Shown here: piece by piece, positions 2,176-11,517 of the stretch
How the letters are laid out: each line of letters begins with the position of its first letter
How positions within the stretch are numbered: the stretch's first letter is position 1
DNA from: a virus
Length of the DNA stretch: 28,044 nt
Direction: 5' to 3' (one strand)
Virus record (IMG/VR): IMGVR_UViG_3300047643_000076
Location: 1 to 28,044 of that record
Notes under the pieces: generated by a model
What the model saw: only the letters and a program-made list of their open reading frames with translations
Databases searched by the model: none
What the model was told of the DNA's origin: nothing
Program-made: the position numbers and the translations under genes

Positions 2176-4038
2176 TTATATTTGATAGGTAAAGGTATAT
2201 CCGTCAGATCCAGCTGTTCCGCCATTTCCACCAGTTCCGGCTGCCCCACCTGTTACGGTAAGTGTTCCAATACCACTGCCTGTTGTTGATCGATAGCAGA
2301 TTATTATACACCCTCCACCGCCGCCGCCACCATTTCCTGATTTGTCTGTGGCAGTTACGCCGTTGCCGCCTTGTCCACCTTTTGCTTGAATTGTTCCGGC
2401 ATTATTTAGGACAAAAGCATAAATAAGTATAACGCCTCCACCACTACCACCACCACCACCTGTGATCTCGGATGATCCAGTACCCAATCCAGCACCTCCC
2501 GATCCTCCTTTTGCACCTGCTAAACGTGCGTTTGCCGCAGAACCCGCCACAGAAGCTGCCCCATGACTTGAACCGCCACTACCACCACCGCCAGCAAGCA
2601 TATTCGCACTTACGGCTGTTGGTACTGCGATAAGCGGGGATACCGCCACAGTCGACGAACCGTTAGACGTTCCTGTGCCTGTATTTCCTCCACCATTACC
2701 GCCAGCCATTCCAGAAGCAAGAAATAATCTTTGAGTGTATGGAGCCGCACCACCATTGCCCGGCACCGCAGTTCCACTTGCTCCAGGACTTCCGGAATTT
2801 CCGCTACAGTCAATTATACCATTGTTTATTAGAGTTCCGGCGCAGTGAATTTCAAAACCAGCAGGATTGACTGTGACACCATTATTGATTGTAATATTGA
2901 TGCAGTTAATTTCACGCGTCAGAGTATAAACATTTCCAACAGGCACAATCCCAAGGATTGTAGTTGCGCCATCAAAGGTCACAGACCCATCACTTTTATC
3001 ACCAAATAAACTGTATTGATCTCCGGTGTTCGTGTTTGAAGTATTTTCGATTACTGTCTTTTGTGCGTCAGTACAATATCTCTTGTCTGCACTATCAGCG
3101 ACGTTTGCCGTTGTTAAGGTTCTATCGGCAGTAAGATCTAAACCATTTATCTGTCGTGAAGTCGGAACACCGCCAAGAAGTGCCAATGTGTATATCGGGT
3201 CAAAATACGCTTTCAAAGTCGCCTTGACATTTACCCATGTCACCCCTTGAAGTAACCCTGAAACACTATCCCAAATACCAAATTTGTCAGCATCAATCGG
3301 CGTTGCTTTTGCAGTGGTTGCATTTATCTTTGTGCCGATATTGGTGTTCCAGTTCGTTTTGTCGGTGTCGGTGACGAGACGGTGTGTAGTATCATCAATC
3401 AGCTGAGACAGTAACGTCGGAATTGCAGGATAAGGAACGGCAGTCCAGCTGCCAATCTGTGTCGGATTGTCGCCGGTTATTATCCACATCGGATGCAGTG
3501 ACTGATCGCTTCGAATACACCAATCACCTTTTTGCCCGGTCAATGCAAGCATTGCAGCTTGATTGATTGGTGTTCCAAGAAATTCAGTTAAAGATATCAG
3601 CGGTATCTGATTCGGATCTAATTTTCCGTCGACAAGATCAGCTTTGCCGTTCCAAGTTGCTTTTTCAGCATCGGTAACAGTTCTGTGTTCTTCATCCTGT
3701 GCCAGCTGCGACAATCCAAGATTGTTCATGTATTGAATTGCAAATGCTTGCAACTGCGCAAATTCAGTGCTTCCTTCATTTATAACCGCGCTTGTTAATC
3801 CTTGTATGTTCGATCCCCATAATACTATTTTGCTGGCTGTAATTGACGCGGGAAAAGTGATCCGCGTAAAACCAACATTCAGCATAATAGGCAGATGGGG
3901 AAAAACATCGGAAACGACGCCGCCCTCGGATGAGTCCGGGTCAAAAAATATGGCAGAGATAACGGCTTGCGATTCCGATTGAACCAGCAACGACGTTACC
4001 TGTTGGCTTGCAAGCAGGTCTATTGTAAAACTTTCCAT
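2176..4038 (-). CDS. Tail fibre/adhesin with polyglycine-rich tip
   Basis: 620 aa. Residues 1-110 are a unique N-terminus, probably for attachment to the fibre before it or to the tail. Residues about 110-335 contain three degenerate copies of a phage-fibre motif (EHRTVTDAEKATWN, THRLVTDTDKTNWN, DKRYCTDAQKTVIEN) and a module with GDWCIRSDQ...GSWTAVPYP common in fibres. Residues 360-412 look like short beta-helix rungs (INITINNGV, GTLINNGIIDC). Residues 412-613 are strongly Gly/Ser/Ala-rich, with runs such as GGGGSGGS and GGGGGSGGG alternating with short beta strands (VILIYAF, CIIICYR). This resembles the polyglycine-sandwich adhesins of T-even-like phages (S16 gp38 type). The start overlaps the upstream fibre stop by one base (TAATG). 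Likely the receptor-binding protein. Confidence 0.8.
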   Translation of the reverse strand: MESFTIDLLASQQVTSLLVQSESQAVISAIFFDPDSSEGGVVSDVFPHLPIMLNVGFTRITFPASITASKIVLWGSNIQGLTSAVINEGSTEFAQLQAFAIQYMNNLGLSQLAQDEEHRTVTDAEKATWNGKADLVDGKLDPNQIPLISLTEFLGTPINQAAMLALTGQKGDWCIRSDQSLHPMWIITGDNPTQIGSWTAVPYPAIPTLLSQLIDDTTHRLVTDTDKTNWNTNIGTKINATTAKATPIDADKFGIWDSVSGLLQGVTWVNVKATLKAYFDPIYTLALLGGVPTSRQINGLDLTADRTLTTANVADSADKRYCTDAQKTVIENTSNTNTGDQYSLFGDKSDGSVTFDGATTILGIVPVGNVYTLTREINCINITINNGVTVNPAGFEIHCAGTLINNGIIDCSGNSGSPGASGTAVPGNGGAAPYTQRLFLASGMAGGNGGGNTGTGTSNGSSTVAVSPLIAVPTAVSANMLAGGGGSGGSSHGAASVAGSAANARLAGAKGGSGGAGLGTGSSEITGGGGGSGGGVILIYAFVLNNAGTIQAKGGQGGNGVTATDKSGNGGGGGGGCIIICYRSTTGSGIGTLTVTGGAAGTGGNGGTAGSDGYTFTYQI

Positions 4039-5564
4039 TATGTCATCTCAAAATAAAGAAACACTATCCATTTATCGGTATCGCCGGGCTGTTGATCTCC
4101 CGCATCATCCGTGAATTGTTGAGAGTATAAAACGATATCATCATTCGATGCTGCGTCATGCTGCATTAGTCGAAATGTCGGATGAATCGGCATCGCACTG
4201 ATATCGCCGCGCACAATTTCAGGGCGCACGGGATATGCGGTATTGTTAAAGGCAAGATGCGGGGCAAACTCCATTCTTGCTGTATAATCTTCCTCACCAC
4301 CGAAAGCTGCACCATGATACATTATAACTTTTTTAAGAATAGCTCCGGGCAGAACAAGATACAGAGGATCGCCATCGGGCTCAGAGAATGGAATCGGATT
4401 GTTGTTGGAATACCCTGCAATTTTTTTATAGAGCCTAAAAGAGAACGATTTGTTAACAGCACTGACAGCGTCGATTTGGTTTGCGACATATTCCTGCGTA
4501 GCTAATTCTTTACCTTGCGACCGAACTTTTAGGTATGGGAAATCGACATAATCATTCTGATTGACATTCTCCATCAATATTTTATAAACGCCATCTTTTG
4601 CGTTTTCAATTAACGTTATCAATACTCCATTGGTATTGATAACGCGCAAGCGCAGACCGGGTGATCCATCGGCTAAAATTAATTCAAGCGCAGGATAAAC
4701 ACCCTTAATGTATATTGTTCTTAGGAATGTTTTTATCCCATCGATAGCTTGATCTGTTGTCAATCGTACGAATGAAGCAAGAGAGGCAAGGCTGGCATAA
4801 CGTGCATCATGATCTCCGCTCGATTTGTGTGCAGTGAGAGCTGTATTCACTGTCGAGGCGGCTCCAAGAGTATCGTATCGTGCATCATTGCGAGTATCAT
4901 TATGTGCATCATGGTCATTGCTGGATTTATGTGTCGTTAATGCGCCGCTCACGGCCGCTGCCGCACCAACAACATCATAACGTCCATCGTTGTGAGCGTC
5001 ATGATCTGTGCTCGATTTGTGTGCAGTGAGAGCTGTATTCACTGTCGAGGCGGCTCCAAGAGCATCGTATCGTGCATCATTGCGAGTATCATTATGTGCA
5101 TCATGGTCATTGCTGGATTTATGTGTCGTTAATGCGCCGCTCACGGCCGCTGCCGTACCAACAACATCATAACGTCCATCGTTGTGAGCGTCATGATCTG
5201 TGCTCGATTTGTGAGTTGTGAGTGCACCATTGACTGTGTCTGCCTCTGTATCGATATTCGACTGCAGCGCTGTGTCCGCTGTAGAGCGTGTGGCTGCCTC
5301 CGTATCGATATTCGACTGCAGCGCTGTGATCGCCGTAGAGCGTGTGGCTGCCTCCGCTTCAAGCGCCTCGTCTTGTACGTTCTGCTGAGCATCGTCCTCG
5401 CTCTTCGTGTAATAAAGCGAGGGGTGTCCATTCGCGACGTGCGTCTCAGCTTGAGACGCGAGCGAATTGACAGCTGCAGCAAGTGTATCATCGTTCGCAT
5501 TCCACTTAACGCGGCCGGCGTCGATGGTATCGGATGATGCTACTGTATTGACTGTTGTAGACAT
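4038..5564 (-). CDS. Tail fibre protein with tandem repeats
   Basis: 508 aa. Residues 1-70 are an N-terminal segment with a DTLAAAVNSLASQAETHV-type helix. Residues about 70-110 hold near-identical 18-residue repeats (TRSTAITALQSNIDTEAA type, predicted coiled coil). Residues about 118-255 consist of repeats around THKSS-DHDAHND...RYD, with two near-identical 64-residue blocks. The His/Asp-rich HDAHND motif could bind metal ions along a trimeric stalk; this is inference. The remainder (260-508) is a non-repetitive beta-rich region, including VRLTTDQAIDGIKTF, a motif frequent in phage fibre stalks. It has a strong AGGAG 8 bases before the ATG and lies between the tail-tip protein and the second fibre. 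Likely a fibre shaft that carries the downstream Gly-rich adhesin. Confidence 0.8.
   Translation of the reverse strand: MSTTVNTVASSDTIDAGRVKWNANDDTLAAAVNSLASQAETHVANGHPSLYYTKSEDDAQQNVQDEALEAEAATRSTAITALQSNIDTEAATRSTADTALQSNIDTEADTVNGALTTHKSSTDHDAHNDGRYDVVGTAAAVSGALTTHKSSNDHDAHNDTRNDARYDALGAASTVNTALTAHKSSTDHDAHNDGRYDVVGAAAAVSGALTTHKSSNDHDAHNDTRNDARYDTLGAASTVNTALTAHKSSGDHDARYASLASLASFVRLTTDQAIDGIKTFLRTIYIKGVYPALELILADGSPGLRLRVINTNGVLITLIENAKDGVYKILMENVNQNDYVDFPYLKVRSQGKELATQEYVANQIDAVSAVNKSFSFRLYKKIAGYSNNNPIPFSEPDGDPLYLVLPGAILKKVIMYHGAAFGGEEDYTARMEFAPHLAFNNTAYPVRPEIVRGDISAMPIHPTFRLMQHDAASNDDIVLYSQQFTDDAGDQQPGDTDKWIVFLYFEMT
4818..5201. repeat. Two 192-bp tandem repeats inside the fibre gene
   Basis: Units at 4818-5009 and 5010-5201 are nearly identical; single-base differences seen include agtatcg/agcatcg and gcaccaac/gtaccaac. 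A short third partial copy begins at 5202. Each unit encodes 64 residues made of two THKSS-DHDAHND sub-repeats. The near identity at DNA level, including silent positions, points to recent duplication or gene conversion, and to a fibre shaft length that can change by recombination. Confidence 0.92.
5248..5355. repeat. Two 54-bp tandem repeats inside the fibre gene
   Basis: Units at 5248-5301 and 5302-5355, both starting gtatcgatattcgactgcag, differ at a few bases near their middle (gtgtccgctg versus gtgatcgccg). They encode an 18-residue unit of the TALQSNIDTEAATRSTA type, with the heptad-like pattern expected of a trimeric coiled coil. Confidence 0.88.
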
Positions 5565-6046: not shown

Positions 6047-7257
6047 GCGAATACTCTCCCGACGACCTTCGTCGTTTCGTCGACATATTCATCGGTTATA
6101 GACATCATCAGCGCGTTCGATCCGCGTATTGAAAGTAATTCAAACGGATTGAGCGCAGGAACCAGGTCGTGATACAACACCTCGACCTCTTTAAACGGCT
6201 TTACAAAACGATCAAAGTGTTTACTGCAATATTCAGTTAATCCGCTGATTGATGTTCTGCCGTTGACCGTAACCATTGAGAACACGGGGATCGAGTCGAA
6301 CGGATAATAGTCCGGGTCTTTAGCGACGACGCGCGTTACAGCATTCAGTTCGTCATCTGACTTGGCCCACATACCATCCGGCACGCGTAAATCAAGAGCA
6401 TCTTCCGTGTTAACAGAAGCCGCGCCGGTGGGATACACGTAAGGATGCAGGCCATCGGATCGATACTCGCCATAATAATACGACACATAACTGCCCTGCT
6501 TGACTTTGTAGGAGATTATGACGGATGCATACTGCGCGTCGCGATCCGTTTCTTTATAGGATGCGATCAGATCGTCGTATCCGGTGTGCAGCACGTCCGC
6601 ATACTTCAAGCGTGGTACGACTTTTAGCACAGGCATTCCGCTACTGTCGTAATCGTCAGACACAAAAAGCAACGCCCGGTAATGCTTCGCGAAGTCAAGC
6701 CAGAAGTCACGCAGGCTGTACGATTCGTTTTCCTTCAAAAAGTCGAAATATTTATCGTTCTTTTTCCCGGTCGTATTTGCAAACTCAAAATCAGACGGAT
6801 TAAGAACCACACTACAGATACCGCGACCGTGCAACGTGTTCGTCGCAACAAGGTCGAACGCACTAAGCGCAGCCTTCAGGCCGTCGTCCGTCGAATATGT
6901 GATACCATCAGGAGAGGTTTCGAGGCGAGCTTTTGCCGTGTTGAATAATGACTTGACGATGTGTACGGCGTTCAACGAATAAACTTCCGTCTCTGGATCG
7001 TATTCCGCGCCATCGGCTTGGAATATTCCACGGAAGCGCCGTGTTGTTGTTCCGTCCTTAGTTATTGCCACTGCGAGATAAACCGTCGTTCCGGCAAGAA
7101 CAGATCTATAAAGTTCAGAAGCTTCAAGCATGTCGAGCTTCACATCCGATGCTATAAAGGCATACTCGTCTTCTTCGTACGCCCGGGTCAATTCGATGGA
7201 CTTGACCTTCGCAGCAAAAATCGCAGTATCGCTATATGTCGATATACTCACGTTCAT
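6043..7257 (-). CDS. Putative tail hub / distal tail protein
   Basis: 404 aa. The N-terminal 130 residues (ISTYSDTAIFAAKVKSIELTR, then TTRRFRGIFQADGAEYDPET) look like the strand-rich start of tail hub or distal tail proteins, and VYSLNAVHIVKSLFN resembles a segment common in tail-tip proteins encoded after tape measures. The rest is mixed and Tyr/Asp-rich, with no enzyme motif seen. It follows the tape measure with an ATGA overlap at 7254-7257 and precedes the tail-tip unknown. By position it should be the structural hub that caps the tail tube and carries the fibres. No peptidase or lysozyme domain is visible. Confidence 0.6.
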   Translation of the reverse strand: MNVSISTYSDTAIFAAKVKSIELTRAYEEDEYAFIASDVKLDMLEASELYRSVLAGTTVYLAVAITKDGTTTRRFRGIFQADGAEYDPETEVYSLNAVHIVKSLFNTAKARLETSPDGITYSTDDGLKAALSAFDLVATNTLHGRGICSVVLNPSDFEFANTTGKKNDKYFDFLKENESYSLRDFWLDFAKHYRALLFVSDDYDSSGMPVLKVVPRLKYADVLHTGYDDLIASYKETDRDAQYASVIISYKVKQGSYVSYYYGEYRSDGLHPYVYPTGAASVNTEDALDLRVPDGMWAKSDDELNAVTRVVAKDPDYYPFDSIPVFSMVTVNGRTSISGLTEYCSKHFDRFVKPFKEVEVLYHDLVPALNPFELLSIRGSNALMMSITDEYVDETTKVVGRVFA

Positions 7258-10178
7258 AATGCGAGAGCCGCGCGGCGGCGCGTCAATTGTTTATCCAGCT
7301 TATCATATTTCTGCCAATCCGTCCGTGACTCTATGACGACGCTCGGATTCAAATTCTTTATTGATCTGTTGAGCTTCGCAAACATGCCCAGCAGAGACGA
7401 TGCGGACGATGCATCGCTGTTTACCGCAACGACATCACCAACAATGCCACCAGCGCTATACTTCGGCATTATTATATTACCAGCATTGAACGCCTGTAAA
7501 AACGCGACGTTCTTTTGTGCTACTTCTTTGCGAATGATGAACTCACCTTTCTCGGCTTCGATTACGGTTCCACCTTCTGCATGCGACTTTCCACCGACAG
7601 TGCCGCCGGTACCGAACTTCGGTATTATCGCCTCAAGCGCAGCTTGGAGTGCAACACCGGCTGCAGGAGCGAGAATCAGAGCGAGCGGGCCGGTTGCTTC
7701 TACAATCGACGCGACGTATGACATCACAGCCTGCGCTATCTTTGCCCGGATAGTTTCATTTACTTGTTGATTAATCTGCTTTCCGAGGTCGACGTCAGCT
7801 TGGTATGCCTGCATTCCAGCCTTGATACTGGATTCAACTTCTTGTTCACGTATAGTGATTTTATCTTTTATCGAATCAATTAAACTTTTATCCCTATCTA
7901 ATTGAGATTTAAGGTTCTTGCGTTCCTCCGCGTCAGTCGAAGCAAGATACTTTTTCTCATCAGCGGCTTGTTTCTTTTGAGCTGCGGCAAGATCATCCTT
8001 CATTGATGCAATACTGTCGTTCGCCTTCTTCGCGTCCTTCACTTTATTGGCGTTGATCTGCTTCTCTTCCTGATATGCTTTATTCTCCTCGGCAAGTTCT
8101 TTGGCACGTGCAGCATCCGTAATTGAATAATCGACATCGACGGTTGCCTTTTTAGTAGAGGCATCTTTACTCGTCGCTTCGATGTCTTTTTTCAGCTGTG
8201 CCAGCTGCGCACGTAATTCTTTGAGCTTTCCGGGATCAGAGGTCGCTTTAATTTCCGCTTCGATGATTTTCTCATTGAGCTCTATAGCTTTTTCAGCTGC
8301 ATCCCGTTCAAGATCAATACGCTTCAGAGCAAACTCTTTTGTAATCGCCTCTTTCTCCGTGTCGGTCTTTGCTGCAGCAGTTTTACTTTTTTCCTGATAG
8401 TCATATTCAAGAGAAAGTGATTCCTTCATGCGTTCAACGTCTTTGATCTGCTGTTCGAGGCTCAACTTTTCATCAGCGAGTTTTGCATCGAGCTTTATCT
8501 GTTTAAGCTTCTTGTTGTGTGACTCAAGGGCCAATCGTTCAAGCTCTTTTGCTTGCCCTTGCGTCACTTCCTGATTTTTCAACTGCGTTTTGATGTTCGC
8601 AAGTTCTTCTTTATAAGCAACCTCTTCCAGAGCTTTGCGCTGTGCAATGCCGGACTTCTCGGTTTCAGCTGTCTTCTTCTCGATTTCTATCATCGCTTTC
8701 GACATACTATCATATGCCACCTTCGCAGCACCGGCGCGTTTGTTCAATTCCGCGTTGATGATCTGTGTCGAGTCCTGCCATGCTTTCTTTTCCTCGTTCA
8801 GCTGTTCAAGCATCTTCTTACTCGCATCATCTGTTTTACCGGCAAGAGCAGCGATCTGCTGATTTATTTTGTCGAGTTCTATTTTTGCATTCGCTTTACT
8901 CCATTCTAATTCCGCATCAGAAAGGATTTTCACTTTATCAGCAAGATCGTCAAGACCGATAGCAGTTCTGTATCCGGCTTCGCGTTGCTGCTTCAGCTGC
9001 TCTTCCAGCTTCGCTCCATGTGTTATATAAGTGTAGATCACAGCGCCGAGGCCCGCGATAGCCGCAATGAGCCATGTAATTGGATTGGCGAGTATCGCCG
9101 CATTCATTGACATGATTGCAGGAACAAGCTTTGACCATATTCCTATCGAGGCTATAAGAGCATTTGCGTTAACAACCAGCAATGCCGCAGCGAAGGCCCC
9201 TACAACAGCAATGATGAGGGCGATATATATGTTTCCATTTTGTATTGAAGTCCAAAGCGTTCCCAAACCGGTAGTGATCGAAACAAGTAGATAGGGCAGT
9301 GCTCCGAAAGAAGTATTTAAAAGAACTGCGACAGCGGCGAGTGTTGCAATGCCTGCGGCGGCAATCTTTAAAGAATCTGGAATGCTACCTACAACCGACA
9401 TCGCATTCGTCACGGTAGTCACAATCGATTTAATCATCGGAAGAAACGCTTGAACGACGCTCCGAGAAATAGAGTCGAGAGCGTCGTTCATCGTCGATAT
9501 TTTTCCGGCCATAGTCTCGGCTTGTTGTCCCATTATGCCGCCGTACGTTGCCATTGCGGCAACGAAAGCTTTCCATACTTCTGATCCCTTCGCACCGCTG
9601 GCCTGCATGCGTTCGAGCTGCGTGCGGGTTTCGCCGGACATAAGCGCAAGCTCCTGCAGACGCATTGCCGCTTCACCGAATTCTTTACCTGCATTGATAT
9701 TCGTGTAGGCACGGCCCACCCACATTGCTATTTCTTCGAAGCTCGCTCCGGATGCGCTTGCCATATCACCGACCATCTTCAGCGAGTCGCCAGTTGCCAG
9801 CGCGTTACCGCCGAAGGTTTGAAGGATTTTTGATGCCTTCACAACTTCCGGCAATTCGAACGGCGTCGCATTGGCAAAGTCAGCCAGCTCTTTCATTCTA
9901 TCTTTAGCAGCCGAAGAGCTTTTAAGCAATACGCGCATCTGCACTTCTGCCTGTTCAAACGCGCTTGCCTTAGAGATCGGTTCTGATACGAGGTTTTTTA
10001 GACGGGAAATAACTTCGATGCTTTGATTGATACCGAGCATCCGTTCACCGAGGTCTTTGAATCGCGACGATGCCGCGTTTGCGGCCACACCGGTGCTATT
10101 GACTGCTTCGGTTATCTTTTGCGCCGCTGCAGCAGCCTGATCGCCGGAGAGAGTAATTTTTAAAGTTATTTCTGTCAT
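7254..10178 (-). CDS. Tape measure protein
   Basis: 974 aa. Sets tail length and is ejected with the DNA. Residues about 40-245 are the conserved N-terminal TMP domain (ISKASAFEQAEVQMRVLL, ATPFELPEVVKASKILQTFG, WVGRAYTNINAGKEFGEAAMRL, QAETMAGKISTMNDAL). About 265-390 is strongly hydrophobic, with several membrane-like spans. About 390-790 is long charged coiled coil rich in Lys, Glu and Ala. The C-terminus has a hydrophobic patch and then GTGGTVGGKSHAEGG...EKGEFIIRKEVAQKN, a motif often found at the end of tape measures. The gene follows the G/GT chaperone, as is usual. At roughly 0.15 nm per residue the length would fit a tail of about 145 nm. The ribosome binding site is weak (CCGGA). Confidence 0.95.
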   Translation of the reverse strand: MTEITLKITLSGDQAAAAAQKITEAVNSTGVAANAASSRFKDLGERMLGINQSIEVISRLKNLVSEPISKASAFEQAEVQMRVLLKSSSAAKDRMKELADFANATPFELPEVVKASKILQTFGGNALATGDSLKMVGDMASASGASFEEIAMWVGRAYTNINAGKEFGEAAMRLQELALMSGETRTQLERMQASGAKGSEVWKAFVAAMATYGGIMGQQAETMAGKISTMNDALDSISRSVVQAFLPMIKSIVTTVTNAMSVVGSIPDSLKIAAAGIATLAAVAVLLNTSFGALPYLLVSITTGLGTLWTSIQNGNIYIALIIAVVGAFAAALLVVNANALIASIGIWSKLVPAIMSMNAAILANPITWLIAAIAGLGAVIYTYITHGAKLEEQLKQQREAGYRTAIGLDDLADKVKILSDAELEWSKANAKIELDKINQQIAALAGKTDDASKKMLEQLNEEKKAWQDSTQIINAELNKRAGAAKVAYDSMSKAMIEIEKKTAETEKSGIAQRKALEEVAYKEELANIKTQLKNQEVTQGQAKELERLALESHNKKLKQIKLDAKLADEKLSLEQQIKDVERMKESLSLEYDYQEKSKTAAAKTDTEKEAITKEFALKRIDLERDAAEKAIELNEKIIEAEIKATSDPGKLKELRAQLAQLKKDIEATSKDASTKKATVDVDYSITDAARAKELAEENKAYQEEKQINANKVKDAKKANDSIASMKDDLAAAQKKQAADEKKYLASTDAEERKNLKSQLDRDKSLIDSIKDKITIREQEVESSIKAGMQAYQADVDLGKQINQQVNETIRAKIAQAVMSYVASIVEATGPLALILAPAAGVALQAALEAIIPKFGTGGTVGGKSHAEGGTVIEAEKGEFIIRKEVAQKNVAFLQAFNAGNIIMPKYSAGGIVGDVVAVNSDASSASSLLGMFAKLNRSIKNLNPSVVIESRTDWQKYDKLDKQLTRRRAALAL

Positions 10179-10228: not shown

Positions 10229-10836
10229 TCAATACCGCCGCCGCAACAACATCTCTAATAAATCCGCTATTAAAGCATCAGGCGATTTATAGTCGCCGTC
10301 GTGTATCCGTTCGAGCTGCGAATCGATCATAGACTTCTGCTCGATAAACATTTGTGCTACATCACCGAAGGGCCAGACATCCCAGAGTTCTTTCCATGCG
10401 CGTGCATCGCCATTTGCGCAAAAATTTACAGCAAAACTTAAGGCTACGGCGATTGGAATTTCTTCGCCTTCACTTCCAGCGGAATCTTTTACGGATGCGC
10501 AGACTTCGCTTGCTTTTTCAAGTTCGCGCTGGAATCGGTAAAAAAATCAGTGATGATTCCTGTCAGCATTTCTACGTCACCGCAGGCCATAGCGTCTTCC
10601 ACCGTGACCGGTTCGACGAACATCGCTTCGAGCAATGCCTGTACCTTCTGATCGTCCGTCATAACATCGAGAAGAATAACGTCGAATGATTTTTTTACTT
10701 CATCTTCGAGACCGGCAAACATAGTTGCGACCTCGGTCAGTGTTTTCGCTCCGAAGACCTTCGCAACTTTAAGCAGACGACGGCTGGTGACTTCAGCCGT
10801 CGTGAATTTTTTACCATTGATCTGATACGTTTTCAT
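10229..10836 (-). CDS. Tail assembly chaperone, GT-type frameshift product
   Basis: 202-residue product predicted from a -1 frameshift. The first 99 codons are shared with the 115-aa G-type protein. At the T7 run (10546-10540) the frame shifts back one base and continues as YRFQRELEKASEV for 103 more codons to a TGA at 10229. The second half reads as normal protein, with a Trp-rich helical segment (ARAWKELWDVWPFGDVAQMF) and a basic end (MLLRRRY), and has no start or ribosome binding site of its own. Position between tail tube and tape measure is exactly where long-tailed phages place the G/GT chaperone pair that loads the tape measure and recruits tube subunits. The frameshift is inferred from sequence. 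Confidence 0.85.
10489..10836 (-). CDS. Tail assembly chaperone, G-type short product
   Basis: 115 aa, the product when ribosomes do not shift. It begins MKTYQINGKKFTTAEV, is mostly helical with an acidic middle, and ends in a short tail (NLKKQAKSAHP) after the slip site. It resembles the short tail chaperones of Mu-like and lambda-like phages, which bind the tape measure before tube polymerisation. It has a GAGGTG motif upstream and lies 11 bp after the tail tube stop. It shares its first 99 codons with the longer product at 10229-10836. Confidence 0.8.
   Translation of the reverse strand: MKTYQINGKKFTTAEVTSRRLLKVAKVFGAKTLTEVATMFAGLEDEVKKSFDVILLDVMTDDQKVQALLEAMFVEPVTVEDAMACGDVEMLTGIITDFFTDSSANLKKQAKSAHP
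10540..10546 (-). promoter_or_regulatory. -1 ribosomal slippery site T TTT TTT
   Basis: In the frame of the upstream gene the codons read GAT TTT TTT ACC, so the heptamer fits X XXY YYZ (T TTT TTT) with both tRNAs able to re-pair after slipping one base. A 103-codon open frame follows at once in the -1 frame. A stimulatory structure downstream was not established by eye. Confidence 0.85.
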
Positions 10837-10847
10837 TCATTCACCTC

Positions 10848-11291
10848 TTAAGCTGCTGCAGTCACGAGTGAATAGATTTCACTTTCATCCGCCGCAGGCT
10901 TTTCACCGTGCAGTTTGATGAAAGAGGTGTCACCGACGTTGAGCTCACCGGACATCAACAGAGAGAAGTCCTTGATGAGCAGAATCGGATTCGTCGCAGA
11001 GACCGTTCCGAACGGTGTCGCTTGCAGGGAACAATTTGTTCCGCGCAGCGCCTGCAACGCCGTCGCTGTCGTAGAATCAACCTCCAGTGTGCTTGTTTCG
11101 AACTTGGCCGTAAGATCAAGTGCTTGAGCGCCGAGCTGAGACGACACGGAGTTCTGATCCCAGGTGACTTTTGCGAAGGGCTTACCTTTAAGGTTTCCCA
11201 AATCGGTAGCACCAGCAGTAAACACCGGCGCTGCACCGGCGACGTTCCCGACAATTTTCAATGTCTTGATAGACATTTTAAATAAAGACAT
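10848..11291 (-). CDS. Putative major tail tube protein
   Basis: 147 aa from the ATG at 11291, which has GAGG 6-7 bases upstream; the open frame upstream of it overlaps the previous gene. It is beta-rich, with alternating segments such as KTLKIVGNVAG, FAKVTWDQNSVSSQLG and LDLTAKFETSTLEVDSTT, and ends in small residues. Size, composition and position just before the G/GT chaperone and tape measure match tail tube subunits of siphovirus-type Mu-like phages. No sheath gene sits next to it. Similarity to a named family was not tested. Confidence 0.65.
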   Translation of the reverse strand: MSLFKMSIKTLKIVGNVAGAAPVFTAGATDLGNLKGKPFAKVTWDQNSVSSQLGAQALDLTAKFETSTLEVDSTTATALQALRGTNCSLQATPFGTVSATNPILLIKDFSLLMSGELNVGDTSFIKLHGEKPAADESEIYSLVTAAA

Positions 11292-11298
11292 ATGTGCC

Positions 11299-11517
11299 TC
11301 ACTTTCTTTTTTTGTTATCGTCAATCCATGTGCGGATATATGCAACATCGGCCTGCACATGGTCAATCTTTGCATTCACTGCGTCCAGCGCGCGGTCGAT
11401 CATTTGATTGACTTCTTCGCGCTTCGGTCTATCGGACACATAGCGCAAGGATACGGTGGCGATACTCACCATGCCCACAATAGCTACAATCGTTTGTATG
11501 AACTGCATCATATCCAT
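11299..11517 (-). CDS. Small membrane protein, N-terminal span plus coiled coil
   Basis: 72 aa beginning MDMMQFIQT, with one N-terminal membrane span (about 4-24) followed by an amphipathic helix (REEVNQMIDRALDAVNAKIDHVQAD) and a basic end (DDNKKRK). The ATG at 11517 has AAGGAAAAGG upstream. It lies between the capsid and tail tube genes, an unusual place for a membrane protein. The topology resembles inner-membrane spanins or the small DUF2730-like proteins of Mu-like phages, but neither is established. Function unknown. Confidence 0.6.
   Translation of the reverse strand: MDMMQFIQTIVAIVGMVSIATVSLRYVSDRPKREEVNQMIDRALDAVNAKIDHVQADVAYIRTWIDDNKKRK

Follow-up and report, generated by a model that had tools for sequence, protein, structure and literature searches.

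How are the two reading frames that overlap just upstream of the tape measure gene in this viral contig related, and does the second reach expression as an extension of the first? The window, by which we mean the whole 28,044-base stretch analysed here, carries a MuA-type transposase (phrog_310, E 6e-65, together with a Mu-transpos_C match), a Mu-type portal (Portal_Mu, E 8e-24), a phage terminase, a head protein matching phrog_212 and a tape measure gene. Together these genes indicate a Mu-like transposing phage with siphophage-type head and tail gene order. Elsewhere in the window, positions 4807-5356 hold two sets of tandem repeats, one with a 192-bp unit (2.1 copies, 98%) and one with a 54-bp unit (2.3 copies), both within a 508-aa open reading frame (4038-5564) that is perhaps a tail fibre gene.

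Two frames upstream of the tape measure gene

The features at issue, all on the minus strand of the window, are as follows.

7254..10178, minus strand: tape measure protein (TMP), 974 aa; phrog_9959 E 7e-18; Pfam TMP_3 E 4e-9, just under the cut-off
10848..11375, minus strand: probable tail tube protein, 175 aa, placed by position only, between the head genes and G
10489..10836, minus strand: G-type tail assembly chaperone ORF with ATG start, 115 aa, zero frame; phrog_1613 and fold matches
10540..10546, minus strand: slippery heptamer T_TTT_TTT in GAT TTT TTT ACC (10548-10537), X_XXY_YYZ phase; kept as U_UUU_UUN in relatives
10229..10546, minus strand: T frame (-1), running 105 codons from slip site to stop (TGA), adding 103 residues after the slip; no start of its own
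10229..10836, minus strand: predicted GT fusion via a -1 shift, 202 aa; aligns across the junction with four relatives

The sequence-only reading had taken G for a tail assembly chaperone. The tail assembly chaperone family phrog_1613 weakly matches G over residues 2-99 (E 0.01), and the AlphaFold model of G (pLDDT 80.6) has a tail assembly chaperone as its best BFVD match (E 1.7e-3, short of 1e-3; probability 1.00), with further named tail assembly chaperones among the next matches; a PDB fold search with the same model gave no match. The assignment is supported by the position of G before the TMP gene and by the resemblance of its modelled fold to predicted tail assembly chaperones. T had no family match, and a viral fold search with its model (pLDDT 72.8) gave nothing useful. 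The candidate tail tube ORF likewise had no family match in the profile search.

T stands in the -1 frame relative to G, rather than -2 or +1. It ends at TGA 10231-10229 and opens exactly at 10546 because TGA 10549-10547 closes it directly upstream; the shift must therefore fall between 10546 and the G stop. T_TTT_TTT is the sole in-frame X_XXY_YYZ heptamer within this overlap, and its phase is as first proposed. An A_AAA_AAA heptamer farther upstream in G (10696-10690, in GTA AAA AAA TCA) was rejected as the slip site, as the -1 frame there stops before the T frame. The first ATG, GTG or TTG of T comes at 10351, 195 nt in, and translation across the slip gives 202 residues, so the earlier description of a 103-codon open frame with no start of its own, extending G into a 202-residue product, proved accurate. 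Its statement that no gap is left before the tape measure was nearly right, but the TMP ATG (10178) follows the T stop (10229) after 50 nt.

Taken by itself, the window makes a modest case for a frameshift. Across 6,639 in-frame positions in its 20 long ORFs we counted 5 U_UUU_UUN motifs, the T_TTT_TTT site included, and 19 X_XXY_YYZ motifs, so that an 18-codon overlap would contain the former by chance in about 1% of cases and the latter in about 5%. Comparison with relatives is what decides the matter.

Relatives and their frame relations

Searching viral contigs directly for relatives of G and T returned none, and tblastn of the window's G and T against 50,697 phage records gave no match; nor did a capsid scan of viral contigs, or a search with the window terminase among the phage records. 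Relatives were reached through the terminase. Some lie in viral contigs, others in Ignavibacterium, Kapaibacterium and Stygiobacter genomes or in other Bacteroidetes MAGs, and the phage of the window probably belongs to Bacteroidota hosts. Two relative-bearing genomes have CPR bin labels, which may reflect errors of binning. Each locus was scanned for a G ORF followed by a tape measure gene, with a T frame that opens within G but out of frame with it, and such pairs were found in most loci that extend to that region. Loci in which the G/T pair could not be resolved (L021/L061, L046, L049, L052-L054 and several short or truncated contigs) were not counted, and L007/L009 (terminase 24%) was dropped as a relative, its virion gene set being different. 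A search with the window TMP did not recover the TMPs of L002, L006 and L007.

In 21 tail modules, including that of the window, T is in the -1 relation to G and an in-frame U_UUU_UUN lies inside the overlap. The window has T7, L055 and L074 have T_TTT_TTC, and L059 has T_TTT_TTA; four modules carry T8 at the junction (L013, L056, L060, L076), one carries T10 (L050), and 12 of the 21 carry T9 (L002, L010, L015, L016, L017, L018, L022, L047, L057, L058, L065, L066). L076, which was found with G and T profiles and no motif requirement, has the expected T8. In L013, a degenerate repeated segment (2700-3100) lies between the T frame and the start of the tape measure gene. Comparison with related phages, which the sequence-only reading had proposed as a check, thus came out in favour of the site and of both frames.

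Alignments of the window GT with those of L055, L015, L047 and L057 (E 4e-17 to 9e-14) run through the junction, the slip falling at residue 99 in the window and at residues 97, 99, 101 and 101, respectively, in these relatives. In the close pair L047/L057, pN/pS of T is 0.085 in its own frame versus 2.2-2.9 in the other two, which indicates that T is under purifying selection in this pair. A chance overlap with a non-coding second frame would need only the roughly 1% event of an in-frame U_UUU_UUN in such a stretch, but the homology of T between phages and its low pN/pS in L047/L057 make this reading extremely improbable. It is hardly more probable that T is a separate small gene, translated by its own or by coupled re-initiation and never fused to G. 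Non-standard starts (ATT, ATC) are present in the T frame, but the first conventional start lies far inside it, several relatives have no start in T at all (L002, L059), and T proteins resemble one another from the slip site onwards. Among loci with both G and T, we looked for the layouts that would contradict a fusion by frameshift, and found none with the two fused in one frame and none with a T start at the junction.

The -1 relation did not extend to every relative. Eleven other modules require a +1 shift (L008, L012, L020, L024, L048, L051, L062, L063, L069, L070, L079), and all have a zero-frame TTT_CGN inside the overlap. One of the +1 scans asked for TTT_CGN, so the unbiased part of this set comprises 8 non-redundant modules and the 2 motif-blind finds, L069 and L070. 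Junction positions are ~1786 in L020, ~8762 in L048, ~9947 in L062 and 7814-7820 in L008, and the fuller TCC TTT CGN, as in influenza PA-X, occurs at the junctions of L020, L048, L062 and L070. A -2 shift was rejected for the TTT_CGN relatives, as UCC_UUU cannot re-pair two bases back; some relatives thus appear, from their sequences, to use a forward slip at UUU-CGN. UUU_Ynn has been reported as prone to +1 shifting in bacteria (PMC5009743), and UUU_CGN is the +1 motif of influenza A PA-X and of plant amalgavirus (PMC5009743, PMC5052127). Judged by title, none of five papers naming UUU_CGN together with frameshifting concerned phages, and the foremost was on plant amalgavirus. Those viral sites seem to resemble the sites of our +1 relatives, which are DNA phages of bacteria, and not the -1 site of the window. 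One -1 module, L050, has T10 followed by CGA (~7118-7130), with a U-run -1 site and TTT_CGN both in frame and both shifted frames open.

Homopolymers are where indel errors arise and the window is a metagenome contig, so we also considered whether a sequencing or assembly error, or a real homopolymer indel, had split one ordinary gene into G and T. The out-of-frame layout recurs, however, in 32 modules that are independent of one another or have diverged, and involves two different motifs; both T9 and the two frames are kept in L047 and L057; we regard this explanation as very unlikely.

A candidate stem and the probable mechanism of the shift

A stimulatory structure a few nucleotides 3' of a -1 site is common, though not obligatory. 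Downstream of the T run, the window contains a perfect inverted repeat.

10527..10534, minus strand: 5' arm of the candidate stimulatory stem, TTCCAGCG, 5 nt past the slip site
10474..10481, minus strand: 3' arm of the candidate stimulatory stem, CGCTGGAA, perfect inverted repeat of the 5' arm

The stem has 8 bp at a spacer of 5 (p 0.005-0.007 against dinucleotide shuffles), while the whole-fold energy past the slip site is unremarkable (z -0.7 to -1.8). Stems were also seen in the short-run -1 relatives L055 (T_TTT_TTC, p 0.008) and L059 (T_TTT_TTA, p 0.03), and scores were weaker in two later cases, D3112 (p 0.09) and L074 (p 0.22). No conserved stem was found in the nearest T9 relatives of the window (L015, L047, L057), and the 13 T9-T10 modules as a set had none at the usual spacing (combined p 0.33). 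A rank test comparing the stems of short and long T runs gave p 0.003, a value that is not independent because the idea was formed on the window, L055 and L059.

The distribution of run lengths and stems bears on whether the shift might arise during transcription, with RNA polymerase adding one U (or dropping two) at the T run and normal translation then yielding GT. Of the 21 -1 modules, 12 carry runs of precisely nine Ts and one a run of ten, lengths beyond what ribosomal slipping needs, and the long-run set lacks a stem at the usual spacing. T9 members possibly rely on such slippage, because T runs longer than 8 are known as sites for it (PMC3711429). The window has only T7, under that range; L055, L059 and L074 have six Ts followed by C or A with the frame relation unchanged, and the window stem is placed as at ribosomal -1 sites. 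For the window we therefore consider transcriptional slippage improbable, though less so than the other alternatives weighed above.

Ribosomal -1 frameshifting appears to be the best mechanism for the window because a perfect 8-bp stem starts 5 nt past the run. Most ribosomes would translate G to its own stop, giving the 115-aa chaperone. With UUU UUU occupied by Phe-tRNAs, a minority would slip one base back on U_UUU_UUU, and the downstream stem would hold the ribosome during the slip; the slipped ribosomes would continue into T and produce the 202-aa GT fusion. The two frames, the slip site, the conservation of both, the selection on T in relatives and the stem as a stretch of sequence were observed; slippage itself, its efficiency, its stimulation by the stem and the roles of G and GT are inferred. 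By analogy with lambda, many copies of G and few of GT would coat the tape measure protein, and T would recruit the tail tube protein. We conclude that the overlapping frames of the window are very probably the G/GT pair of tail assembly chaperones in a Mu-like siphophage, joined by a ribosomal -1 slip with a stem.

Module exchange and known recoding systems

On the terminase tree, at least five changes between -1 and +1 are needed, three of them forced by well-supported branches. The sister pair L019/L060 (-1) and L069 (+1) have capsids that are 83% identical, whereas their chaperones show no significant match, indicating that the tail module has been exchanged between them; an in-place switch of direction is excluded here by the same comparison. 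L074 is a -1 module with T_TTT_TTC, yet it matches the profile of the +1 chaperones (E 2e-16), so a switch of direction is also possible inside one lineage of chaperones. By and large, shift direction goes with the tail module. We tentatively propose, with confidence a little short of even, that these Mu-like siphophages, which have relatives in Bacteroidota genomes, make up a single clade whose tail modules are interchangeable and differently recoded: by -1 shifting at short U runs with a stem, possibly by polymerase slippage at T9, and by +1 shifting at UUU_CGN.

The slip sequence of lambda, G_GGA_AAG, differs from that of the window. In layout and direction lambda gpG/gpGT is alike: a short ORF lies just upstream of the tape measure gene with the shift near its end, the direction is -1, and the T frame is reached only through the shift (PMC5009743). 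Recoding of tail chaperones by -1, -2 or +1 is known and widespread, with an established role in lambda (PMC5009743). In the HK97-like tail chaperone cluster, recoding measured with reporters was 6-7% (PMC3711429); its sequence family differs from that of the window.

Among Mu-like phages, Mu gp41/gp42 share the reported role and gene position of G and T, but use a -2 shift (PMC5009743) in a phage with a contractile tail, whereas the window has a -1 relation and a siphophage-type layout. The sequence-only reading had set the window apart from Mu on this point; the difference is real, but Mu is the exception, as -1 shifting had already been published for D3112-type phages. T TTT TTC with a -1 shift was reported for PaMx73, a Mu-like siphophage of P. 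aeruginosa (PMC4378225), and we checked D3112 here, finding T TTT TTC at L064:7009 with the -1 frame open. These Pseudomonas phages (Casadabanvirus) share with the window a U-run -1 site between the chaperone frames (PMC4378225), but have T_TTT_TTC where the window has T_TTT_TTT, and no likeness was detected between their G and T sequences and those of the window. As judged from its sequence, the window is a further case of known -1 chaperone recoding, with precedent in Mu-like phages.

The correct gene model for this locus includes a predicted 202-aa GT that start-to-stop gene callers overlook, and the public phage collection contains no chaperone resembling those of this phage group. Members of the group seem to connect the same two genes in different ways, through -1 shifts, +1 shifts and perhaps transcriptional slippage, and lend themselves naturally to comparison. 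Such a comparison would allow a test of how the ratio of G to GT in the tail holds when the mode of recoding changes, and of UUU_CGN as a programmed +1 site in bacteria.
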